Part shown: piece by piece, positions 11,331 through 57,661 of the stretch
How positions within the stretch are numbered: the first letter of the stretch is position 1
Layout: every line of letters begins with the position of its first letter
Assembly: GCF_008330945.1 (NCBI RefSeq)
Contig: NZ_CP043488.1
Location: 310,001 to 374,000 of the forward strand
Length of the DNA: 64,000 nucleotides
Reading direction: 5' to 3'
Source: Labrys sp. KNU-23
GTDB lineage: Bacteria; Pseudomonadota; Alphaproteobacteria; Rhizobiales; Labraceae
The notes under the pieces: generated by a model
Seen by the model: only the letters and a program-made list of their open reading frames with translations
What the model was told of the DNA's origin: nothing
Databases searched by the model: none
Program-made: the position numbers and the translations under genes

Positions 11331-11702
11331 CTAAATATGCTTAGAGTTGAGAGTGAATTCTAAGAAATTCATCATTATATATAGATAAAATTTCGGATTT
11401 ACGATAAATAATTCGTATTTTATCTCAGACTTTCCAAAATAATTCTTCCCATGATTCCGAAATTCTATCCGTCTGTCGTTGGCGTGTTTTCGGTACGTCT
11501 CCTGACCTGTAGCCGTTGCCAAATCGATTTCTGGATGAGAGACAGTAAATTGCCGTGCGTAGTGTGACTGGGCCCAACGACCATTTGACAAAAAATTTCC
11601 GGCAAGCTGGGAAGTCAGAACCGCGTGGTCGATGTATCGTGTATCAGTGACTTTAATAGCCGTTAAGCCGATATTGTGGTCCCCCGCGGACGTTAAGGTC
11701 AT
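11331..11702 (-). CDS. hypothetical protein, doubtful
   Basis: The open frame of 123 codons has no recognisable domain, signal peptide or membrane helix, and no clear ribosome-binding site. Its C-terminal third is encoded by AT-rich DNA unlike the first part, so it may be a remnant running into intergenic sequence. Confidence 0.25.
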   Translation of the reverse strand: MTLTSAGDHNIGLTAIKVTDTRYIDHAVLTSQLAGNFLSNGRWAQSHYARQFTVSHPEIDLATATGQETYRKHANDRRIEFRNHGKNYFGKSEIKYELFIVNPKFYLYIMMNFLEFTLNSKHI

Positions 11703-46448: not shown

Positions 46449-47246
46449 TCAGGGTGCATATTTGTCAGCGCTTTCCAGGTGCGAACGCCTGACAAGCCAT
46501 CGCGCTGCATCGGTGGCAACCGTGTCCGGCAAAATCTGCCATTGAATGTCTAGATGGCCTTCTGGAACACAGGCGATCACCGCATTGCGGTCCGGCTCCC
46601 TGACGACTTCGTCGATGATCCAGGTCCGCAAACCCGGGCCGGCAAGTCGCTTCCCGGCGATGTCCGGAAGCAGATCCATCCCGTATTCGATCAGAACATT
46701 CATGGCGATCCGGCCACTGTGGCCCAAACGGCCGTGGAGAATGCGACAGGTCATTTCGTCGAATTCGGTGGCGTAGTCGAATCCGGGGCCACCGACGTCG
46801 ATGGCAATCGCATCGAAACAATTCCGATTGTAAGTGATGAAATCCTTGAAATCGGCGGCGATGCATCGAACGTCCGGGGGCATCCAGAAATATTCGCGCG
46901 CAAGCATGAAGCTCAGCGGGTTTCTGTCGACGACTGTGACGGACTTGCCTTGCCGATGCAGCATCGTGGCCAGGGTGCCGCCGGCACAACCAAGCACGAG
47001 AACGTCCCTGGCCGGCTGCAGGAGAGCGTTCATCAGGTGAACATAGGTGAAGCAGCTCTCTCCGGACCGCCAGGCATGGCTCTGGAAGGAGCCTCCCTCA
47101 TAGTACCGACGCGCGCCCGTGGCTTTCTCCTCGATGACGAAGATCCTGCCATGGATGCCCTCGAAACGGGCTAGCAACTGCACGGTGCCTCCCTCCATAT
47201 GCGGATAATGTGCCGAATGCTGCGTGGGACACTCAACCGCGTCCAT
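46449..47246 (-). CDS. spermidine-synthase-like protein 1, catalytic motif altered
   Basis: This 265-residue protein has the Rossmann core of the spermidine synthase family: a beta N-terminal part (RIFVIEEKATGARRYYEGG), the SAM-binding loop VLVLGCAGGTLATMLHRQGK, the acidic VTVVDRNPLSF, and AADFKDF. The catalytic segment DSTDP of true spermidine synthases is DVGGP here, so aminopropyl transfer is unlikely. It is 78 bp downstream of the 72-residue gene that follows an FNR box, probably on one transcript. A paralogue is encoded at 48058-48888. An in-frame ATG at codon 17 is an alternative start. Substrate unknown. Confidence 0.7.
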   Translation of the reverse strand: MDAVECPTQHSAHYPHMEGGTVQLLARFEGIHGRIFVIEEKATGARRYYEGGSFQSHAWRSGESCFTYVHLMNALLQPARDVLVLGCAGGTLATMLHRQGKSVTVVDRNPLSFMLAREYFWMPPDVRCIAADFKDFITYNRNCFDAIAIDVGGPGFDYATEFDEMTCRILHGRLGHSGRIAMNVLIEYGMDLLPDIAGKRLAGPGLRTWIIDEVVREPDRNAVIACVPEGHLDIQWQILPDTVATDAARWLVRRSHLESADKYAP

Positions 47247-47721: not shown

Positions 47722-48033
47722 TCAACGCTTGCGCACGAACTCCGTGCGCAGAACCAGGCCCTTGATTCCTTCATAGCGGCAGTCGATCTCCTCATCGTTG
47801 TCAGTGAGGCGGATCGACCGGACCACCGTCCCCTGCTTCAAGGTGAGACTGGTTCCCTTGACCTTGAGATCCTTGATGAGGGTGACCGCGTCGCCATCGG
47901 CAAGGACATTGCCAGCCGAGTCACGAACCGTTTTTTGGCTGGCTTCAGCGGCGGCCTTCACTTGCGAAGCGGGCAGCCATTCGCCGCTCGCCTCATCATA
48001 GATATAATCTTCATTGTCGTTGGCCATGGCCAC
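47722..48033 (-). CDS. PhnA/YjdM-family protein
   Basis: This 103-residue protein matches the PhnA (YjdM) C-terminal domain: RDSAGNVLADGDAVTLIKDL, KVKGTSLTLKQGTVVRSIRL, then DCRYEGIKGLVLRTEFVRK. The usual N-terminal zinc ribbon is missing; the first 30 residues are acidic. Despite the family name a role in phosphonate use is not established. It is 24 bp behind spermidine-synthase-like gene 2 and shares its operator. The second in-frame ATG (48027) is an equally good start. Confidence 0.82.
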   Translation of the reverse strand: MAMANDNEDYIYDEASGEWLPASQVKAAAEASQKTVRDSAGNVLADGDAVTLIKDLKVKGTSLTLKQGTVVRSIRLTDNDEEIDCRYEGIKGLVLRTEFVRKR

Positions 48034-48057: not shown

Positions 48058-48888
48058 CTATCGCGCAGCGAGAGGCCGTTCATCCGAGGCTGGTCCGATG
48101 TCGAACATGCGCTGCATGAACAATTCGGCCAGTTGCCGCTCCAACCCGCTCACGGGTGTTTTTTGTCTGTGATGATAGGGGGCCAAGGGGCTGCGCGGAG
48201 GCCTTTTCGTCCAAGGAACATTGTCCAAGGCAGTCCCGTATACCTCATCTCGCAGGTTGTGATGCTCAGTGGGCGGGAGGCGAACAAGCACGGCGTTGAA
48301 GTCCCGCTCTCCGATCTGGTCGTAGATCCACAGGCCGGCACCTTCGGCCATGAGCCCTGAGGCGATATGATCGGCGAGCGTATCGGCGGCCTCGGGAATG
48401 ATCAGGTTCATGGCCAGGCGGCCGGCTGGGCTTAGCCTCTTGCAGATTGCCTCGCAGGTCGGAGCATCGAACAGATCCTGGAAGGCAACGGTCGGCCCAC
48501 CGATGTCGACCGCGATGCCGTCAAATTGGGCGCTCTCCGTTTCCAGGTAATCTCGAAAATCCGCTGCCACACATCGTATGGCTGGCGCCATGCCAAAATA
48601 GTGGCGTGCGATGCGAAAACTTTCCGGATTGTTGTCGATAACGGTCACGCGCTTGCCGGATCGGTGGAGCATCGTCGCCAGTGAACCGCCGGCACAGCCC
48701 AGCACCAGGACCTCTTTGCAGGGAGCGAGGACATCCGCCATCAGGCGAATATAGGACAACAGGCTGGTTCCATCCGGGTCGGCATAGGTCTGAATGGCGC
48801 TACCTTCCAGATAGACACGGCCGCCCCGGCGGTCCTCGTAAATCGCCACCACGCCCGATTTTGAGTCGATGAGATCGATCTGACGCAT
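48058..48888 (-). CDS. spermidine-synthase-like protein 2, catalytic motif altered
   Basis: With the ATG at 48886-48888 (GGGG five bases upstream) the protein has 276 residues. It has the same core as protein 1: SGVVAIYEDRRGGRVYLEGS, the SAM loop VLVLGCAGGSLATMLHRSGK, VTVIDNNPESFRIARHYFGM, AADFRDYL, and DIGGP in place of the catalytic DSTDP. An extra 40-residue C-terminal extension is present. It is the first gene of an operon with the PhnA-type gene. A perfect 19-bp palindrome lies 81 bp before its start, identical in plan to one before the hyf-like operon. The reaction is unknown. Confidence 0.7.
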   Translation of the reverse strand: MRQIDLIDSKSGVVAIYEDRRGGRVYLEGSAIQTYADPDGTSLLSYIRLMADVLAPCKEVLVLGCAGGSLATMLHRSGKRVTVIDNNPESFRIARHYFGMAPAIRCVAADFRDYLETESAQFDGIAVDIGGPTVAFQDLFDAPTCEAICKRLSPAGRLAMNLIIPEAADTLADHIASGLMAEGAGLWIYDQIGERDFNAVLVRLPPTEHHNLRDEVYGTALDNVPWTKRPPRSPLAPYHHRQKTPVSGLERQLAELFMQRMFDIGPASDERPLAAR

Positions 48889-48968
48889 TGAACCCCGATT
48901 TGACGTGATGCCGATCGGCAGGCCCGTCGCCTTCGCCCTGCCCAAACCGATGCGATATGAGCATCGAT

Positions 48969-48987
48969 TTGATGTTTTAAACATCAA
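48969..48987. promoter_or_regulatory. 19-bp palindromic operator (site 1)
   Basis: TTGATGTTTTAAACATCAA is a perfect 9-1-9 palindrome, 81 bp before the start of spermidine-synthase-like gene 2. A near-identical site is at 56614-56632 before the XRE gene heading the hyf-like operon, also 81 bp before its start. Confidence 0.7.
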
Positions 48988-49112
48988 TGATAAAGCAATA
49001 TATAGCAATAAGAAGGTTCGGACCGCAAGAGGAGTGAATGGCCCGAGGCCGTTCTCAATCATTCGGCGGGCTGGTGAAGCGCACGCAACGGCCCTTCACG
49101 TGACTGTGACGA

Positions 49113-49631
49113 TTACATCTGCGTTCGGCTCAAAAGCGCCAGAAGGCCTTTGAGAAGCGCGGTGGGTGTGGGCGGACAGCCGGGAATATGGAGATCGACG
49201 GGTATGACGTCGGATACCCCCTTCGCGCAGGCATAGCTACCCGCGAACAGGCCGCCATCCAGCGCACATCGTCCGGCAGCAACGACCCATTTGGGCGAGG
49301 GCATGGCCTCATAGGTCCTTTGCAACGCCTCGCGCATGTTCAGCGTCACAGGTCCTGTAACCAGCAGCACGTCGGCGTGCCGTGGCGAGGCCACGAGATG
49401 CAGGCCGAAGCGCTCGAAATCGTAGAAGGCGTTGCCAAGAGCGTTGATCTCAAGCTCGCAGCCATTGCAGGAGCCGGCGTCGACCTCGCGGATGGCGAGG
49501 CTCCGGCCCAGGCGCGCCTGGGCAGACCGGCCCAATTGGGCAATGAGGCCGGCGATTTCCGGATCATGGGGGGAGGGAGCCGGTTCGGTGAGTGGCGCTT
49601 TGCGCAATGTATCGAACAGCAAACGTCTCAT
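49113..49631 (-). CDS. hyfI: HyfI/NuoB-like iron-sulfur subunit of a Hyf-type complex
   Basis: The 172-residue protein has the four Cys of the NuoB family: DAGSCNGCELE (two), AGRCALDGG and HIPGCPPTP, which hold a 4Fe-4S cluster. In hydrogenases this is the cluster closest to the active site; in complex I it passes electrons to quinone. The start is the ATG at 49629-49631, just after the large-subunit gene; the frame is open further up but only across that gene. It is the last gene of the six-gene operon. Confidence 0.88.
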   Translation of the reverse strand: MRRLLFDTLRKAPLTEPAPSPHDPEIAGLIAQLGRSAQARLGRSLAIREVDAGSCNGCELEINALGNAFYDFERFGLHLVASPRHADVLLVTGPVTLNMREALQRTYEAMPSPKWVVAAGRCALDGGLFAGSYACAKGVSDVIPVDLHIPGCPPTPTALLKGLLALLSRTQM

Positions 49632-49641
49632 GACCGGAACC

Positions 49642-51165
49642 TCACAGGTCGTGTCCGGAATAGGAACAGTTGAAGGATTTGTTGCAGAGCGGAAAATCGG
49701 CCACGATATTGCCGTCGATTGCCGCTTCGAGCAGGGGCCATTGGAACCAGGACGGATCACGCAGATGGCAGCGGCGGATTCGTCCGTGCTCATCGAGGCT
49801 GACCCAGACGAGGATATCGCCGCGAAAACCCTCCACCAAGGCCATCGCCTCGCCGGCTCTTGCCTGGGATAGATCGGCGTGGACGGGGCCTGGGGGGAGG
49901 CGCTCGAGGATCTGGTCGATCAGCGAAAGGCTCTGCTCGACCTCCCTGATCCGGATCCAGACCCGGGCATTGACGTCGCCGTCGGTCAGGACCGGTATTT
50001 CGAACCGCAGATCGTCATAGGGGGGATAGGGCAGGACGCGACGCGTGTCGAAACGCCGACCCGACGCCCGGCCGATGAACCCGCCGCATCCGTATTGGCG
50101 TGCCAATGCGGGATCGACGATTCCGGTTCCTACCGTCCGGTCCTGCAGCGAGGCCGTATTGTCGTAGAGCTCCACAAGCGCCGGAAAGACGCGGCGAATT
50201 TCAGTCAGGAGGTCCTTTAGCGCGACCTCCCCGTCCGCGACCAGATCGTTGCTGATGCCGCCGGGAATGATGCGATCCATCATCAGGCGGTGCCCGAAGC
50301 AAGTCATGGCAGTGCGCAGGACGCGTTCGCGCAGTACACTGCAATGCGCGTGCATCAAGGCGAAGGCTGCATCGTTGCAGATGGCGCCGATATCGCCGAA
50401 ATGATTGGCGAGCCGCTCGAGTTCGGCCATCAGGCCCCGCAGCCATACAGCACGCGCCGGCACTGTGGCGTCGTGGACAGATTCAACAGCATTCGCAAAG
50501 GCCAAGGCATAAGCGACGGTGCTGTCGCCGGACACGCGACCGGCCAGCTTGGCAGCATGCCCGATATCGGTACCGATCATCAGCCCTTCCACGCCCTTGT
50601 GGGTGTAACCGAGCCGTTCCTCGAGCCGGACAACCGTCTCCCCGCCGGCCGTGAATCGGAAATGTCCCGGCTCGATCACGCCGGCATGGACAGGACCAAC
50701 AGGAATCTGGTGCAGGCCTTCGCCTTGTGCGCCGAGGAAGGGATAAGGCACGGCCAATGCGGGGGAAGGAGTCTGATCGCCGAGCGGATGCCGCACCGGC
50801 CACATTCCGTGATCGAGCCATGGCCTCGTGTCAGCCAGGCCGATCGGCAGCAACCCGAAGAGATCGCGCACGGTGCGTTCCAGGCGCATCGCCGGCGGGT
50901 GAGACTTGCTCAAGGAGGGGTATTGCCCACCGGGGCAATCATGGGTGACCATCGCCCCCGTCCGCTGCGCTTCATCGACCACCGCGACGCGAACGACGCC
51001 ACCACTCTGCCGATTTTCCCCCCATAGACCCAGCAGCGTGACGGCACCCTGTTGCAGTTGTTCCGCCAGGTCGTGCCACAGGGCATCGTCGGCACTGACA
51101 TGAGGCCAGGAAAGATGCTCCCCAGGCGTAGGATTGGCGGTCAGCAGCTCTTGGAGCGTTGCCAT
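49642..51165 (-). CDS. hyfG: HyfG-like large subunit (NuoC-NuoD fusion) without Ni ligands
   Basis: About 507 residues: the first 150 are NuoC-like, the rest NuoD/hydrogenase-large-subunit-like (PVHAGVIEPGHFRFTAGGE, ERLGYTHKGVEGLMIG). Energy-converting NiFe hydrogenases carry RVCGIC and DPCxxC. Here the first reads RVSGDS (residues 211-216) and the second DPSWFQW near the C-terminus, so all four Ni-binding Cys are lost. The end, NIVADFPLCNKSFNCSYSG, is the pattern of Ehr-type (energy-converting hydrogenase-related) subunits. It cannot be a hydrogenase; it may handle quinone or another donor. The start could be the ATG at 51165 or 51174. Confidence 0.85.
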   Translation of the reverse strand: MATLQELLTANPTPGEHLSWPHVSADDALWHDLAEQLQQGAVTLLGLWGENRQSGGVVRVAVVDEAQRTGAMVTHDCPGGQYPSLSKSHPPAMRLERTVRDLFGLLPIGLADTRPWLDHGMWPVRHPLGDQTPSPALAVPYPFLGAQGEGLHQIPVGPVHAGVIEPGHFRFTAGGETVVRLEERLGYTHKGVEGLMIGTDIGHAAKLAGRVSGDSTVAYALAFANAVESVHDATVPARAVWLRGLMAELERLANHFGDIGAICNDAAFALMHAHCSVLRERVLRTAMTCFGHRLMMDRIIPGGISNDLVADGEVALKDLLTEIRRVFPALVELYDNTASLQDRTVGTGIVDPALARQYGCGGFIGRASGRRFDTRRVLPYPPYDDLRFEIPVLTDGDVNARVWIRIREVEQSLSLIDQILERLPPGPVHADLSQARAGEAMALVEGFRGDILVWVSLDEHGRIRRCHLRDPSWFQWPLLEAAIDGNIVADFPLCNKSFNCSYSGHDL

Positions 51166-51175
51166 GGCGTGCATC

Positions 51176-52624
51176 CTAACCAAGCATGTTCGCGACGTGC
51201 TGGAACCAGGCAACCAGCGGTGCAGGCAGATAGAAGCCTGCGATCAAGACCAGGGCCAGATGGAGGGCCAGGGGAACATAGGATGCCTTGACCGGCGCCA
51301 TCGTTCCTTTCGGGGCGCCGAAGGCAAGCCCTTGCATGCGCAGGATCAGGGCTCCGAAGGCGACCAGCAATCCCATCACCAGCGCTAAGGCCAGCAGGGG
51401 TTGCCGCCCAAACGTGGCGCTCACGATCAGGAATTCGCTCATGAATACCCCGAACGGCGGCAGGCCGGCGATGGCGAGCACACCAAAAACCAGCCCCCAG
51501 CCGAGCGGTGGGTGGCTCTGGGTCAGGCCGCCGATCTCGGCCATCTTCTGGGTGCTTTTGGCTTGGGCGACATGACCGACGGCAAAGAAGATCGCCGATT
51601 TCGTCAGGCTGTGCATGGTCATGTGCAAGAGGCCGGCAAAATTGGCGAGCGGGCCCCCCATGCCAAAAGCAAAGGCGATGATGCCCATGTGCTCGATGGA
51701 GGAGAAGGCGAACATGCGCTTCATGTCGCGGCGCCGATAGAGCATGAAGCCGGCGAAGATGAGCGAGACGAGGCCCATCGTCACCAGCATCGGACCGGGC
51801 GCGATGGCCGCGGGGTTGGCGGCGAGCAGGAGCTTGAAACGCAGCACCGCATAGAGGGCGACATTGAGCAGCAGGCCGGAGAGCACGGCCGAGATCGGTG
51901 TCGGCCCTTCGGCGTGCGCGTCGGGCAACCACGCGTGCAGGGGCACCAGGCCCGCTTTGGTGCCGTAACCCAGCAGCAGGAAGATGAAGGCGAGATTGAG
52001 CAGCGAGGGATCGAAGTCGGCGGCGTGCCGCAGCAGGACCGTCCAGACCATGCCGTCCACGCCTTCGCCCACGATGGGGCGGGCTGCCATATAGACCAGG
52101 ATGGTGCCAAAAAGGGCCAGTGCAATACCGACACTGCCGAGAATGAAGTATTTCCAGGCCGCCTCGATGGCCTCCTGGGTCTGGTAGATCCCCACCATCA
52201 GGACGGTGGTCAGCGTGGCAACCTCGATGGCGACCCAGATCAGGCCGATATTGTTGGCCAGCAGAGCAAGGTTCATCGCAAAAAGCAGGACCTGGTACAT
52301 CGCGTGATAGAAGCGCAGATGCGAGGGCGTCAGCCTGCCGATTTCCAGCTCATGGCCGATATAGCTGGCGCTGAACACGCTGGTGGTGAAAGCCACGAAG
52401 GTGTTGAGGAGAAGGAAGACGATATTGAGATCGTCGACCACGATGAAGGAACCTGGGTCCGGTCTGTAGAACAAGAGAGAGAATGCGGCCGCCAGGGTCA
52501 GGAAGGCGGAAAGCGCGTTCAGCCTAGCCGACAGCCGGAAATCCGGCATGACCGCCATGAGGATGGCGGCCAATATCGGAATGATCAGGATCAATGTCGA
52601 ACCGTCCAGGGCAAGGCCGCTCAT
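51176..52624 (-). CDS. hyfF: HyfF-like proton-pumping membrane subunit
   Basis: This 482-residue membrane protein belongs to the NuoL/M/N-Mrp antiporter family with about 14 helices. The conserved channel parts are visible: IGLIWVAIEVATLTTVLMVG with its Glu on helix 5, GTKAGLVPLHAWLPDAHAEG with the helix-7 Lys, and FSSIEHMGIIAFAFGMGGPL with the TM8 His. It is the HyfF type by length and by the PLHAWLPDAHAEGPTPISA block. It overlaps the hyfE-like start by four bases. Confidence 0.9.
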   Translation of the reverse strand: MSGLALDGSTLILIIPILAAILMAVMPDFRLSARLNALSAFLTLAAAFSLLFYRPDPGSFIVVDDLNIVFLLLNTFVAFTTSVFSASYIGHELEIGRLTPSHLRFYHAMYQVLLFAMNLALLANNIGLIWVAIEVATLTTVLMVGIYQTQEAIEAAWKYFILGSVGIALALFGTILVYMAARPIVGEGVDGMVWTVLLRHAADFDPSLLNLAFIFLLLGYGTKAGLVPLHAWLPDAHAEGPTPISAVLSGLLLNVALYAVLRFKLLLAANPAAIAPGPMLVTMGLVSLIFAGFMLYRRRDMKRMFAFSSIEHMGIIAFAFGMGGPLANFAGLLHMTMHSLTKSAIFFAVGHVAQAKSTQKMAEIGGLTQSHPPLGWGLVFGVLAIAGLPPFGVFMSEFLIVSATFGRQPLLALALVMGLLVAFGALILRMQGLAFGAPKGTMAPVKASYVPLALHLALVLIAGFYLPAPLVAWFQHVANMLG

Positions 52625-53283
52625 TGACGTTCTCCCTGAAAACGGTCGAGAGCCTTGGAATCCACGGTGTCGAAGCGCTCGCTGATGCGAAACAGGAAGA
52701 TGCCGATGACGAAAAGGGCAATCAGCACCGAAAAGGCGACACTGATCTCGACCACCAGGGGCATGCCCTTTGCCCCGGTGCCTGCGAGGATCAGGCCGTT
52801 CTCGATCGACATGAAGCCCACCACCTGGCTGACGGCGTTGCGGCGTGTCACCATCATGAGAAAACCGAGCAGGACGACCGAGAGAGCGAAGGAAAGGTCC
52901 TCACGTGCCAGGGGATCGGCGCCGGCCGTGACGCGCAGCATGATCACCATGGACAGGGCCACGAGGCCGATGCCCGCGAGCATGGTCAATCCCACGCCCA
53001 CGACCGTCTCCACCTCCCGGTGAATCCCGAGGCGGGCGATGATGCGATGCAAGGCGACGGGAATGATGATCGCCTTGAAGATGAGGGCGATCACCGCGGT
53101 GACGTAAAGGTGTGTCGCGCCTTGAACCCAGGCTTGCCAGGCCACGGACAGCGACAGCACCACGGCCTGAAGCGCAAAGATGTTGAGCAGCGCGTAGAGG
53201 CGGTTCTGGTAGAGCATCATGAAGCTCACCAGCACCAGGCCGCCGGCCAGGACATGGGCTATGTCGAAGGTGAGCCCGTTCAT
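52621..53283 (-). CDS. hyfE: HyfE-like membrane subunit (NuoK-related)
   Basis: This 220-residue protein has about seven membrane helices. The C-terminal half resembles NuoK (SQVVGFMSIENGLILAGTG with the conserved Glu in the membrane), and the N-terminal part is the extra HyfE segment (ALLNIFALQAVVLSLSVAWQ, YVTAVIALIFKAIIIPVALH). It bridges the antiporter-like subunits and the peripheral arm. It overlaps hyfF and is separated from hyfC by one base. Confidence 0.88.
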   Translation of the reverse strand: MNGLTFDIAHVLAGGLVLVSFMMLYQNRLYALLNIFALQAVVLSLSVAWQAWVQGATHLYVTAVIALIFKAIIIPVALHRIIARLGIHREVETVVGVGLTMLAGIGLVALSMVIMLRVTAGADPLAREDLSFALSVVLLGFLMMVTRRNAVSQVVGFMSIENGLILAGTGAKGMPLVVEISVAFSVLIALFVIGIFLFRISERFDTVDSKALDRFQGERQ

Positions 53284-53284
53284 G

Positions 53285-54235
53285 TCACAAACTCCTCGAC
53301 ACGAAGAGAAGCAGTGCCCCCAGCAGGCTGAGCATCAAGGCTGCGCCAAGAAAATCGGGGACACGGAAGACGCGCATCTTGGCCACCATCGTCTCGAAAA
53401 CGGCGAGGAGGGCAGCGGCAAGCAGGAGCTTGATGAAGTAGACGATGGCGCCGATCAAATAGGCGCCGGCGGGCGCACCGGCAGGGGCAAGCCACCAGGG
53501 AGCGAAGACGCAGCCGATCAGCGAGATATAGAGCACGAGCTTGAGCGAGGCCGACAGCTCGATCAGCGCGAGGTGGCGTCCGGAATATTCCAGCACCATC
53601 GCCTCATGCACCATTGTGAGTTCGAGATGCGTGGCCGGATTGTCGATGGGGATCCGCCCGTTCTCGGCAATGGCCACCATCACCAATGCGATCAGGGCGA
53701 GCGCGAGCGATACCCTCAGCCCGACCGAGACCATGAAGCCGGCGAGATAGGAAAGCTGGGTCGAGCCGGCGAGGAGCGCGACGGAGAAGACGATCATGAT
53801 CATCGCCGGCTCCGCCAGCGTGGCGATCATCATTTCCCGGCTGGCGCCGATACCGCCGAAACTCGTGCCGATATCCATGCCGGCCAGGGCCAGGAAGAAG
53901 CGGGCACTGCCCAGGAGAGCGATCACGACGATGAGGTCGGCCGACCAGCTGAACTGCAGTCCGGTGGCAAAGGTCGGCACGAGAGCGGCGGCCACCCATG
54001 TCGCGGCGAAGATCGCATAGGGCGTGACGCGAAAGAGCCAGGAAGCATTGTTGGCCAACACCACCTCCTTGCGCAGGAGGCGCAGAAGGTCGCGGTATGG
54101 CTGGAATGGGGAGGGCCCGCGCCGGCGCAACAGATGAGCCTTGATCCGCCGCACCAGGCCGGTGACGAGCGGTGCCAGGCAGAGCACGAGAAACATCTGC
54201 AGGGCCTGGATGGCCAGGCTTTCGATCACGGCCAT
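53285..54235 (-). CDS. hyfC: HyfC/NuoH-like membrane subunit
   Basis: This 316-residue membrane protein has eight to nine helices and the NuoH-like loop (RRIKAHLLRRRGPSPFQPYR, DLLRLLRKEVV), which in complex I shapes the quinone pocket, plus the Glu-containing HEAMVLEYSGRHLALIELSA near residue 217. It anchors the peripheral arm to the membrane. It overlaps the hyfB-like gene by ten bases. Confidence 0.88.
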   Translation of the reverse strand: MAVIESLAIQALQMFLVLCLAPLVTGLVRRIKAHLLRRRGPSPFQPYRDLLRLLRKEVVLANNASWLFRVTPYAIFAATWVAAALVPTFATGLQFSWSADLIVVIALLGSARFFLALAGMDIGTSFGGIGASREMMIATLAEPAMIMIVFSVALLAGSTQLSYLAGFMVSVGLRVSLALALIALVMVAIAENGRIPIDNPATHLELTMVHEAMVLEYSGRHLALIELSASLKLVLYISLIGCVFAPWWLAPAGAPAGAYLIGAIVYFIKLLLAAALLAVFETMVAKMRVFRVPDFLGAALMLSLLGALLLFVSRSL

Positions 54236-56235
54236 GACGCCAGCACCACGAGCAAGAAAACAAGCAGCAGGAAGACCAGACTCAGATATTGCCGGATGGT
54301 GAGATATTGCAGGCGGTCGAGCCGCTCAGCGGCAAGCAGGACGGCCTTGACCAACGGTCCGTAGATCCCATCCCAGACGAGGTCCCGCAAACTCACCAGA
54401 AGACGAGCGGGCCGCTGGTCGCCAGGCCTGGGCATGTCAACGCTTTCGCGGGCGCGGAACAGGGTGGCGCCGTAGACGCGCCGGATCGGCTGGGAAAAGC
54501 TGGTGGCGCTGTATTGCGTGATCGGACTGGTGTCTGGAAAGCCGCAATCCCAGGCAGGACCTCGTCTTACGGCCCGCGACGCCAGACGGTGGATGGCGTA
54601 GGCGGACAATGACGCCGAAAAGGTGATGAAGACGAAGACGAGCAGGCCGTTGTAGGAACTGCGGCTCGCGGCAACCGGTATGATGGTGAGCCAATCCACA
54701 CCGGCCTGTGCCGGCATGCGCGCCTGAACCGCGTAGGACACCGCCGGTGCGATGCCATCGATGATGAAGCCCGGAAGAATTCCCGCCAGCAGGCACAGGC
54801 TGGCAAGTGCGATCATCGCGCTTTGTGACCAGCGATCAACCTCGCGTGCTTCCTGGGCTGCGAGCGTGCGGGGGCGCCCCAGGAAAATCGTGCCAAAGGC
54901 GCGAACGAAGCAGGCCGCCGCCAGGGCTGCGGACAAGGCGAGCAGGGCGCCGATGGCCGGCACCAGCAGCTTGAGGCCCCATTGGGGAATCTGCGGGCTC
55001 AGCAGGATGGCCTGAAACGTCAGCCATTCGGATGCGAAGCCGTTCAACGGAGGCAGAGCCGAGATGGCGACACAGGCGACCAGTACGACGGCGCTCGTCA
55101 CGGGCATGCGGTGAATGAGCCCGCCCAGCGCGTTGAGGTCACGTTGCCCGGTCGCCGTCAGGATGGCGCCGGCTCCGAAGAACAGCACGCTCTTGAACAG
55201 GGTATGATTGAGGATGTGGAACAAGGCAGCCGTCATGGCCAGCGCGGCAGCTGCACTGAAACCATTCGCCTGAAAAGCCAGTGCCAGGCCGAGGCCGGCG
55301 AATATGAGCCCGACATTCTCGATCGTGCTGTAGGCGAGCAGCCGCTTGAGATCGGTCTGCATCAGGGCCTGGAGAATGCCGAGAACCGCCGAGGCACCGG
55401 CCGCGACCAGGATCGGGACGCTCCACCACCATTCCGGCGAACCGAGCAGGTCGAAGACGATGCGGATGAAGGCATAGATCGCAACCTTGGTCATCACCCC
55501 GCTCATGAGGGCCGAGACATGGCTCGGTGCTGCCGGGTGAGCCAGGGGCAGCCAGACATGGAGAGGCACCAGGCCAGCCTTGGAGCCGGTACCGAGCGTG
55601 ACCAGGGCGAGCACTGCGGCGATCGCCGTTTCCGTCGGGACTTGATGGCGAATTTGATCGAAGGCGTAAGCACCCTGGCTACCAGCCAGAAGGCCGAAGG
55701 CCAGCAGCAGTGCCAGCGAACCGAAACTCGCCATCACGATATAGACATAGCCGGCCTTGAGGTTGTCCTCCTCGCGATGATGCGCGAGCACCAGCGCCCA
55801 GGACGCCAGCGACATCAATTCCCAGGAAAAAAGGAAGGCGAAGGCATCCGCGGCGAGGACGACAGCGTTCATTCCCGCAAGGAAGGCGGGATAAAATGGC
55901 AATACGCGCAAAGGCTCGTGCTCATGCTTTCCGTAACCGAGCGCGTAGAGGCTCGCAGCGGAAGCACCGAGGTTGACGATGGCCAGGAAGAAGGCGCTCA
56001 ACGCATCGATATGGAAATTTGCACCAATCCAGGGCAGGCCGAGGGGCAATTTCAGATCCGCCTCGGGAAGGCGGACGAGCAGATGCGTGAGCGCGGTCGC
56101 CACGAGCACGAACGAAGCGCATAGACTTGCTGAATAGATGAACGTGGTTGCAGACGAGTGGCGTCTTGCTACGAGCGCCGCGAGTGCAATGGCCAGCAAG
56201 ACCGCGATACACCCCAAAGCGACGGCAAGCGTCAT
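54226..56235 (-). CDS. hyfB: HyfB-like antiporter-type membrane subunit
   Basis: This 669-residue membrane protein of the NuoL/HyfB type has about 16 helices. Key parts are FLFSWELMSLASWALVLAHH with the helix-5 Glu, GTGSKAGLVPLHVWLPLAHP with the helix-7 Lys, and YSTIENVGLIFAGLGLALAF. A long C-terminal part includes the HyfB-type segment WDCGFPDTSPITQYSATSFS. It is the first structural gene of the operon, four bases after the XRE regulator gene. Confidence 0.9.
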   Translation of the reverse strand: MTLAVALGCIAVLLAIALAALVARRHSSATTFIYSASLCASFVLVATALTHLLVRLPEADLKLPLGLPWIGANFHIDALSAFFLAIVNLGASAASLYALGYGKHEHEPLRVLPFYPAFLAGMNAVVLAADAFAFLFSWELMSLASWALVLAHHREEDNLKAGYVYIVMASFGSLALLLAFGLLAGSQGAYAFDQIRHQVPTETAIAAVLALVTLGTGSKAGLVPLHVWLPLAHPAAPSHVSALMSGVMTKVAIYAFIRIVFDLLGSPEWWWSVPILVAAGASAVLGILQALMQTDLKRLLAYSTIENVGLIFAGLGLALAFQANGFSAAAALAMTAALFHILNHTLFKSVLFFGAGAILTATGQRDLNALGGLIHRMPVTSAVVLVACVAISALPPLNGFASEWLTFQAILLSPQIPQWGLKLLVPAIGALLALSAALAAACFVRAFGTIFLGRPRTLAAQEAREVDRWSQSAMIALASLCLLAGILPGFIIDGIAPAVSYAVQARMPAQAGVDWLTIIPVAASRSSYNGLLVFVFITFSASLSAYAIHRLASRAVRRGPAWDCGFPDTSPITQYSATSFSQPIRRVYGATLFRARESVDMPRPGDQRPARLLVSLRDLVWDGIYGPLVKAVLLAAERLDRLQYLTIRQYLSLVFLLLVFLLVVLASWP

Positions 56236-56239
56236 GGCC

Positions 56240-56533
56240 TCATTCCTCCATTCCGTCCATGTCGACGGTGTGTGGGGCCTTTGGCGCGGATTGCCTGAGG
56301 CGAACCCCCCGCCCGCCTGACGAACTGATGTTGCCCTCGCCGATCAGTTCGACACCGGCCGCGGCGAGGGCCTCCACAAGCTTCATCAGAGAGTCGACAT
56401 TGCCCCGGATAAGGCCCGTTCGTGCCTCCATGCGCTGGATCGTCGGCACAGAAAGGCCCGATAGTGCGGCCAGCTTTTTCTGGTCGATACCGAGAAGGGC
56501 ACGGGCTGCCCGCAATTGCGCTGCAGTGATCAT
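56240..56533 (-). CDS. XRE-family regulator heading the hyf-like operon
   Basis: With the ATG at 56531-56533 (GGGA upstream) the protein has 97 residues: an XRE helix-turn-helix at residues 3-55 (AQLRAARALLGIDQKKLAAL, SGLSVPTIQRMEARTGLIRG) and a short basic tail. An ATG eight codons earlier is possible. The choice of 56533 is supported by the operator 81 bp upstream, the same distance as for the operator before spermidine-synthase-like gene 2. Only four bases separate it from hyfB, so it is cotranscribed with, and probably regulates, the operon. Confidence 0.82.
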   Translation of the reverse strand: MITAAQLRAARALLGIDQKKLAALSGLSVPTIQRMEARTGLIRGNVDSLMKLVEALAAAGVELIGEGNISSSGGRGVRLRQSAPKAPHTVDMDGMEE

Positions 56534-56613
56534 CGTCCCAAGCTCACTGAGTGCCATAATTTATATGCAATTTAGAGCTTAATATCCCTATATAACAATC
56601 TCAACACTTATTA

Positions 56614-56632
56614 TTGATGTTTCACGCATCAA
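56614..56632. promoter_or_regulatory. 19-bp palindromic operator (site 2)
   Basis: TTGATGTTTCACGCATCAA matches site 1 (48969-48987) at all but three or four positions and keeps both outer arms (TTGATG, CATCAA). It is 81 bp before the chosen XRE start. Confidence 0.65.
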
Positions 56633-56869: not shown

Positions 56870-57661
56870 ATGAGCGAGTTTTCTGATCATTCGAAAAGGC
56901 GCACTTTAGCAGTCCAGTTTGTCGATAGTCTGGAAGGTGCGGTTGGTGTCGAGCGCAACGAAATCGCAGATACCCGACTCGGCGTCGCCCTATGCTTCAT
57001 CGCCGGTGGCGTGAATGCAGGAGGGTTCCTCGCTGTCGGGCAGTACACCTCCCATATGTCCGGGGTGATCTCGTCGCTGGCTGACAACCTCGCGCTTGGG
57101 GCTACACATCTGGTGCTGGGCGGCTTGGGGGCGTTGACGGCATTCCTTCTGGGCGCCGCCTGTTCGGCTTTCCTGATCCATTGGGGGCGGCGGCATCGTG
57201 CCTATGGTCAATATGCCTTTCCGCTGGTCGTAGAGGCGATTCTATTGCTCCTCTTTGGTCTGATCGGTGGCCTCTACAATCACCGGGTCTTCTTCGTGCC
57301 GGTGGCCATTCCATTGCTGTGCTTTATCATGGGCCTGCAAAACGCAATCATCACCAAGATTTCCCGGGCTCGAATCCGGACCACCCATCTGACCGGCATG
57401 GTGACGGATCTTGGAATTGAACTGGGCAAGCTTTTCTATTGGAACAGGACAGCAAATACTCCCGGTGCCAGGGTTGTTGCAGATCGAACGAAGCTCTCCT
57501 TGCTGTGTTCTTTGCTTGGTGCCTTTCTGACAGGCGGATTGGCGGGCGCTTACGGGTTTCATTTGATTGGCTTTGCAGCCGTGCTTCCATTGGCCACCCT
57601 CTTGTTGATCTTAGCGGGTGTGCCATTGGCCTTGCGACATCCGAGGCAGCGATACCCTTAG
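56870..57661 (+). CDS. YoaK/DUF1275-family membrane protein
   Basis: This 263-residue protein has six predicted membrane helices and the DUF1275 pattern: AGGVNAGGFLAVGQYTSHMS at about residue 45, FIMGLQNAIITKISRARIRT near residue 165, and THLTGMVTDLGIELGK. The first 35 residues are cytoplasmic. The family is widespread and without proven function; transport is suspected. It is a single gene, transcribed away from the hyf-like operon. Confidence 0.85.
   Translation: MSEFSDHSKRRTLAVQFVDSLEGAVGVERNEIADTRLGVALCFIAGGVNAGGFLAVGQYTSHMSGVISSLADNLALGATHLVLGGLGALTAFLLGAACSAFLIHWGRRHRAYGQYAFPLVVEAILLLLFGLIGGLYNHRVFFVPVAIPLLCFIMGLQNAIITKISRARIRTTHLTGMVTDLGIELGKLFYWNRTANTPGARVVADRTKLSLLCSLLGAFLTGGLAGAYGFHLIGFAAVLPLATLLLILAGVPLALRHPRQRYP

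Follow-up and report, generated by a model that had tools for sequence, protein, structure and literature searches.

We analyzed a 64,000-nucleotide stretch of the genome of the soil bacterium Labrys sp. KNU-23 (hereafter, the window; positions 310,001 to 374,000 of contig NZ_CP043488.1), in which a 19-bp palindrome stands in front of two minus-strand gene groups, i.e., an operon for an Ehr-type, hyf-like complex headed by a small XRE-family regulator gene, and a gene pair encoding a spermidine-synthase-like protein (SpdA) and a PhnA-type protein. The putative operator of the XRE-hyf operon (O1; 56614 to 56632, minus strand) reads TTGATGTTTCACGCATCAA on the plus strand and TTGATGCGTGAAACATCAA on the minus strand, and the putative operator before SpdA-PhnA (O2; 48969 to 48987, minus strand; TTGATGTTTTAAACATCAA) is a perfect palindrome. 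At up to 3 mismatches, the pattern TTGATGTTTNAMRCATCAA is present at these two places only (each read on both strands), with 0.08 matches expected in the window (100 dinucleotide shuffles). These are the two 19-mers to which a first-pass annotation of this DNA had drawn attention.

The first gene of the operon (56240 to 56533, minus strand) encodes a 97-amino-acid protein of the HTH_3 family (PF01381; 28.4 bits vs. a cutoff of 23), which is the proposed reader of the palindrome. It is followed, on the same strand, by genes for a hyfB-like membrane subunit (54226 to 56235; NF005086, hydrogenase 4 subunit B), a hyfC-like (NuoH-type) subunit (53285 to 54235; PF00146), a hyfE-like subunit (52621 to 53283; NF008556, under its curated cutoff), a hyfF-like subunit (51176 to 52624; NF005043), a hyfG-like large subunit (49642 to 51165), and a hyfI/NuoB-like small subunit (49113 to 49793; PF01058; the start is a candidate, and the listed open reading frame overlaps hyfG). 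SpdA (48058 to 48888, minus strand; PF13649) is a spermidine-synthase-like protein of the class I methyltransferase fold, and its match to the aminopropyltransferase model NF003380 is weak and far under the cutoff. A PhnA/YjdM-domain protein (47722 to 48033, minus strand; PF03831) is encoded directly downstream.

The operon thus supplies hyfB-, hyfC-, hyfE-, hyfF-, hyfG-, and hyfI-like subunits. In the comparison of the large subunit with formate hydrogenlyase subunit 5 (7z0s), VCGICG, which contains the N-terminal CGIC motif of the latter, aligns with VSGDST, and the C-terminal cysteine pair is out of register. Ehr complexes are defined, in the accessible part of PMC6349859, as having group-4-hydrogenase-like subunits that lack the residues holding Ni and Fe. 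The window operon is like them in its hyfBCEFGI-like subunits and in the replacement of the N-terminal nickel-ligand motif; unlike the window operon, the Ehr complexes treated in that part of the paper belong to other phyla and have possible formate dehydrogenase partners. Since the Ni/Fe-holding residues of the large subunit are missing, the label "Ehr-type" given in the first-pass annotation is sound. A NuoI-like ferredoxin protein was not found among the ten window proteins scanned. Within limited searches of the open literature, we found no account of a regulator of such an operon or of the motif TTGATGTTT.

Palindrome sites and their tie to XRE genes

The core TTGATG-N7-CATCAA occurs at 3 places in the 7,546,354-base genome (two contigs), compared with 0 for the reversed control and a chance expectation of about 0.09 to 0.19 (independent-base composition). 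These counts speak against a motif that is frequent at random sites. With 1 mismatch allowed, the count was 15 vs. 1 per strand for the reversed control; a relaxed genome-wide pattern gave only two extra places (5 vs. 3 per strand for the reversed control). The third core lies on the other contig, before a second small XRE gene. A protein search (E value, 1e-8) identified only two XREs of the hyf-heading XRE's family in the genome, both with a core site upstream; the three genomic sites therefore fall to two XRE genes and SpdA. The nearest named relative of the source genome in our HyfG search was Labrys okinawensis. Elsewhere in the genus (four further genomes), an exact match to the core was found once in G002 (before XRE-hyf), twice in G003, and not at all in G001 and G004. 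The two G003 sites (L092 and L093) have unrelated centers.

For a wider comparison, we used 80 hyf loci (L011 to L090) gathered with HyfG from named genomes. They are the best 80 of at least 574 and, for that reason, lean to close relatives. An XRE of the family was found in 70 of these loci, and 67 XREs stand directly before hyfB. The XRE starts were placed by alignment to the window protein, and 99 XRE upstream regions were dereplicated to 86 by a shared-8-mer filter, which was the sole reduction of kinship. A de novo search of the 86 regions for a 19-bp palindrome yielded TTGATGTtTNAaACATCAA, with a log-likelihood of 533 compared with 57 to 67 in six shuffled sets, and 68 of the regions carried a site above the 99% shuffle threshold. 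The matrix and the threshold derive from these same upstream regions; the untrained class-wide test and the counts away from XRE genes described below are independent of them. On this matrix, O1 scores 23.3 bits and O2 scores 27.2 bits, and other window places reach 9.9 to 13.3 bits (at 11629, 14056, 14991, and 49604). The motif ranges from Bradyrhizobium and Mesorhizobium to Competibacter-type Gammaproteobacteria, and Rhizobium-type loci have the site at -77.

The class-wide sample comprised 385 genomes from across the Alphaproteobacteria, 41 of which contained a family XRE; from 43 matches outside the window genome, the best 29 were taken (L118 to L146). One of these loci (L127) is the same region as a training locus (L067), and two others (L145 and L146) are closely related. 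The consensus proposed in the first-pass annotation, which is not trained on any of these loci, matched at 13 or more of 18 positions in 21 of the 29 loci (21 of 28 without L127), while shuffles of the 29 loci gave 0.14. With the matrix, 22 of the 29 passed the threshold upstream of the start, and 25 passed when overlaps with the start codon were included. Counted in the latter way, 106 of 126 XRE upstream regions (from L011 to L090, nine other loci, and L118 to L146, i.e., with training loci and genus relatives included) lie above the threshold. The de novo motif and the untrained class-wide test thus show that the site is conserved before orthologous operons. In the class-wide sample, the next gene after the XRE encodes a SulP permease in 18 of the 29 loci and a hyfB-like protein in 10, and the remaining one was assigned to neither. 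The motif is thus a mark of the XRE subfamily, with hyf as one client.

The site is also specific for XRE genes. Among 47 sites scoring above 16 bits in the 80 hyf loci (1.51 Mb), 46 are situated at most 160 bp upstream of an XRE start (0 in shuffled sequence). At 12 bits or more, this holds for 73 of 82 sites (1 in shuffled sequence). A pattern-only search (at most 1 mismatch) of 199 genomes of the order found 11 with a site (reversed control, 0). Two of these are the window genome and a genus relative, and 9 lie outside the genus; 5 of the latter 9 matches lie directly before a family XRE (L101, L106, L107, L108, and L109). No site above 6 bits was found in the three hyfB loci that lack an XRE match and have 450 bp of upstream DNA (L012, L025, and L037). 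The single site above 16 bits that is not upstream of a family XRE is found in Sphingopyxis (L089, 637 to 655; 23.2 bits).

The solved protein nearest to the window XRE is the controller (C) protein C.Kpn2I (4yba; sequence E value, 2e-6; Foldseek E value, 1.9e-4), a remote likeness with 29% identity. An AlphaFold model of moderate confidence (pLDDT, 75; residues 82 to 97 are unreliable) predicts helices at residues 4 to 14, 18 to 25, 29 to 37, and 46 to 59. Two segments are conserved in the XRE family, i.e., the recognition-helix segment PTIQRME, which is nearly invariant, and the C-terminal segment GGRGVRL. The second XRE of the genome (C1:2995974-2996231) shares 67% identity with the hyf-heading XRE, and the recognition segments of the two are nearly identical. 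The TTGATGN7CATCAA site before this second gene (L003, 1501 to 1519; XRE start, 1463) has a weaker copy 21 bp away. The near-invariance of PTIQRME would account for the retention of one operator among paralogues; it also suggests that both XREs may read O1, O2, and the paralogue's site.

Site distance and promoter geometry

O1 and O2 each end 81 bp before the chosen ATG (by subtraction, 56614 - 56533 and 48969 - 48888), as the first-pass annotation had emphasized. The equal distance holds at both window operons and is no conserved rule. The exact spacing recurs in only 5 of the 68 strong-site regions, with the window's own and L011 included, and the distance is 38 bp at the genome's own paralogue; we therefore rejected it as a design rule, and the agreement between O1 and O2 is probably a coincidence. 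The window distance is nevertheless close to that commonly seen at hyf heads. In 39 of the 68 regions, the site starts 88 to 103 bp before the XRE start, most commonly at -96 (10 regions), -100 (7 regions), and -95 (6 regions).

A putative promoter of the XRE-hyf operon can be read from the sequence at 56576 to 56604 on the minus strand (TTGAGA, 56604 to 56599; 17-bp spacer; TAAGCT, 56581 to 56576). It starts 28 bp from the first base of O1, and the same interval is found in L011, L013, and L014. Across the regions, likely -35 boxes were assigned by a best-pair search without a shuffle control; at hyf positions, they start 22 bp from the first base of the operator in 20 of 41 regions and 28 bp from it in 5. 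Where the interval is +22, the operator stops 3 bp short of the -35 box (TTGA type) and leaves it uncovered. In 14 of 26 other regions, the likely -35 box starts at +7, inside the operator, and a second-best site lies at exactly ±21 bp (i.e., two helical turns) in 16 of 27 regions at non-hyf positions. At six XRE genes (L026, L051, L090, L121, L133, and L142), operator and start codon overlap (site start, -14), which suggests a roadblock or a translation-level variant of the same control.

An inverted repeat with 6-bp arms (48948 to 48966) adjoins O2 and is centered 21 bp away from it. Its half-site spacing is unlike that of the operator, and since it has no score on the matrix, we rejected it as a second operator.

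The proposed XRE circuit and its rivals

On the basis of these results, we consider it very likely that a subfamily of small XREs (about 90 to 100 amino acids; C-protein-like) has the 19-bp palindrome as its operator and that operator and subfamily form a pair. Regulator and operator are very probably a new example of a familiar kind of pair, marking an uncharacterized set of co-controlled genes. The first-pass annotation regarded the XRE at the head of the hyf-like operon as the obvious reader. Its view is correct in that the motif tracks the XREs that head hyf operons, and it is not supported as to a unique reader: a second XRE has a nearly identical recognition segment, and the motif marks a subfamily that also heads SulP and DUF1275 genes, so that the hyf-heading XRE is not the only obvious reader.

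The window XRE is like C proteins (i.e., C.Kpn2I and also C.AhdI, C.BclI, and C.Esp1396I) in being a small XRE protein encoded by the first gene of an operon. According to the accessible part of PMC6237814, C proteins have dimer sites upstream of and partly over their own promoters, and in the EcoRV system activation comes from the distal site and inhibition from a second, weaker one. Unlike in C-protein systems, the XRE gene is followed by a hyf-like, SulP, or DUF1275 gene (hyfB or SulP in 28 of the 29 class-wide loci) rather than by restriction or methylase genes, the XRE family has the extra conserved C-terminal segment, and the window hyf promoter has one clear site instead of two. As to a type II antitoxin (HigA/MqsA/HipB-like), the NCBIfam antitoxin models score far under their cutoffs for the XRE, and the genes beside it are of the hyf, SulP, or DUF1275 kinds; toxin genes were not searched for specifically. 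Another small regulator, RptR, is described in the accessible part of PMC12255303 as an autorepressor that heads a defense island, forms a homodimer, and has conserved palindromes in its own promoter in many genomes. The window XRE shares with it the small size, the first place in the operon, and the conserved palindrome in its own promoter. As far as that part of the paper goes, RptR differs in that its 6-bp palindrome stands in direct repeats over the -10 box, in that it is compared with bZIP rather than XRE proteins, and in that it controls restriction-modification and toxin-antitoxin genes.

We infer from the sequences that an XRE homodimer (gene, 56533 to 56240) would bind O1 before its own operon and O2 before SpdA-PhnA. 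At many hyf promoters, the operator would lie just upstream of the likely -35 box, a place suited to an activator in contact with RNA polymerase. Many paralogue promoters would instead have it over the likely -35 box, in numerous cases accompanied by a weaker copy exactly 21 bp off, as expected of a repressor. Judged by where the operator lies, the XREs would activate many hyf promoters and act as repressors elsewhere. By analogy with C proteins and EcoRV, we propose activation at hyf and repression at the paralogue promoters and at SpdA; for SpdA, where no promoter was fixed, repression is a guess. The case for activation at hyf promoters is evenly balanced in our estimate. The resulting self-adjusting circuit would set the level of the Ehr-type complex together with those of SpdA, PhnA, and perhaps DUF1275.

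Plain autorepression is a serious rival to activation at hyf, and we judge it credible, if somewhat short of an even chance. The XRE would then block its own, SpdA's, and the paralogue's promoters and activate nowhere, which agrees with the operators that cover the likely -35 box in 14 of 26 non-hyf-position regions and with the roadblock position of the six sites over start codons; the 20 of 41 hyf-position operators that end 3 bp before the -35 box would be unusual for simple occlusion. O2 might also be read by the second XRE paralogue or by both XREs, in which case O1 and O2 would not be one regulon of the hyf-heading XRE alone. This seems a real if lesser prospect, given the paralogue's 67% identity, its near-identical recognition segment, its own site with a weaker neighbor 21 bp off, and the 12 Bradyrhizobium-type loci in which the SpdA homologue is divergent from a second XRE and not from the hyf-heading one. 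Set against it, SpdA lies directly behind the hyf operon in the window, and in five Mesorhizobium loci (L016, L018, L023, L029, and L055) it diverges from the XRE that heads hyf; moreover, XREs that share an operator would be expected to cross-bind, not to read their sites exclusively.

Two further readings have little to recommend them. A box for an FNR/FixK-type global redox regulator could be expected before a hydrogenase-like operon, and the outer letters TTGAT...ATCAA resemble the half-sites of such boxes. The FNR box has 4 bases between its half-sites, compared with 9 between TTGAT and ATCAA here; on this spacing we rejected the reading, which is also at odds with the 46 of 47 strong sites that track XRE genes and is highly improbable. 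That two similar palindromes arose by chance in A+T-rich stretches would suit the visibly A+T-rich surroundings of O1, and it is made almost negligible by the expectation of 0.08 in the window, by the excess of cores genome-wide, and by the retention of the site across genera.

Several results weigh against the operator and activation readings proposed here. Twenty of the 126 XRE upstream regions lack a strong site, two of them from the genus (L096, 9.2 bits; L099, 2.4 bits), the two exact cores of G003 have no family XRE in the surrounding 3 kb, and 4 of the 9 pattern matches outside the genus have none nearby (L102 to L105). In the class-wide sample, sites above the threshold lie upstream of 5 of 10 hyf heads (4 of 9 without L127) vs. 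16 of 18 SulP heads, and the hyf heads reach 8 of 10 only if sites overlapping the start codon are admitted. A generic promoter scan misses the promoter proposed at O1 and finds no sigma-70 promoter at O2. No second site above noise stands beside O1, and at hyf positions a second-best site at ±21 bp occurs in only 9 of 41 regions, with 13 of 41 having one at +38. Finally, the Bradyrhizobium-type SpdA homologues are slightly closer to SpdB, a second spermidine-synthase-like protein of the window (46 to 52%), than to SpdA (41 to 44%), and SpdB has no site above 9 bits nearby.

As a tentative broader picture, a conserved circuit of controller-like XREs may join a probably proton-pumping Ehr-type complex, SulP anion permeases, and a few unknown proteins into a single physiological unit, both in the Alphaproteobacteria and in part of the Gammaproteobacteria. 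The hyf operons would be activated from an upstream site, and the operons of paralogues would be repressed from a site at -35. Ehr-type complexes occur in many bacteria. A defined operator and its regulator would offer a way to find the genes that are switched together with such a complex and hence clues to its task; SulP permeases, spermidine-synthase-like proteins, DUF1275 proteins, and PhnA-domain proteins are the clues at hand.

Candidate member genes and minor observations

The first-pass annotation had described a regulon joining the Ehr-type complex, a methyltransferase-fold protein, and a PhnA-type protein. The spermidine-synthase-like component is upheld by sites at such genes elsewhere, PhnA is tied to a site in only 3 of 8 entries, and the definition is too narrow in leaving out SulP and DUF1275. 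SpdA homologues were found in 17 further loci, which come down to two lineages in essence (Bradyrhizobium-type and Mesorhizobium); in all of them, the gene diverges from a family XRE. In 10 of the 12 Bradyrhizobium-type loci, a further site of at least 7.5 bits (at least 12 bits in 8 loci) starts 37 to 56 bp before the SpdA homologue. SpdB is encoded on the minus strand at 46449 to 47246, and the matrix scan of the window found no operator above 9 bits in its vicinity.

For PhnA, three Mesorhizobium loci (L018, L046, and L055) have a strong, divergent site 144 to 156 bp away in a region shared with an XRE. The other five entries (two of which, L008 and L011, are the same region) have no site of at least 7.5 bits within 400 bp. 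The tie of the window PhnA gene to the regulon is its place directly behind SpdA, and membership of PhnA outside Mesorhizobium and the window is weak.

A DUF1275 (YoaK-type) membrane protein gene (56870 to 57661, plus strand; PF06912) is divergent from XRE-hyf across the operator region and is perhaps an additional member of the regulon. DUF1275 homologues are divergent from XRE-hyf in L053, L079, and L084 as well, and they lie behind a second XRE in L016, L018, L046, L055, and L073. The same holds for L040, where the homologue is split into two frames. PhnA, DUF1275, SpdA, XRE, and hyf, i.e., the gene set of the window, are together in one island in L018 and L055.

A SulP permease gene lies within the hyf locus in 7 of the 80 loci (L015, where it is upstream of the hyfG match, L044, L048, L072, L077, L080, and L081). 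These genes and the XRE-SulP pairs in other loci are a hint that SulP and the Ehr-type complex are functionally linked. Such a pairing, if true, would suggest that anion (perhaps bicarbonate) transport and ion pumping go together. At the second XRE of the window genome (L110; C1, about 2996000), the operator is present and no SulP gene follows, while a genus relative (L111) has SulP there; the L110 XRE may be an orphan left after gene loss. Genes for guanylate/adenylate-cyclase-type proteins lie near the hyf locus in L011 (12975 to 13865; identified by sequence only) and in L029 (17266 to 18255; also with an FHA domain).

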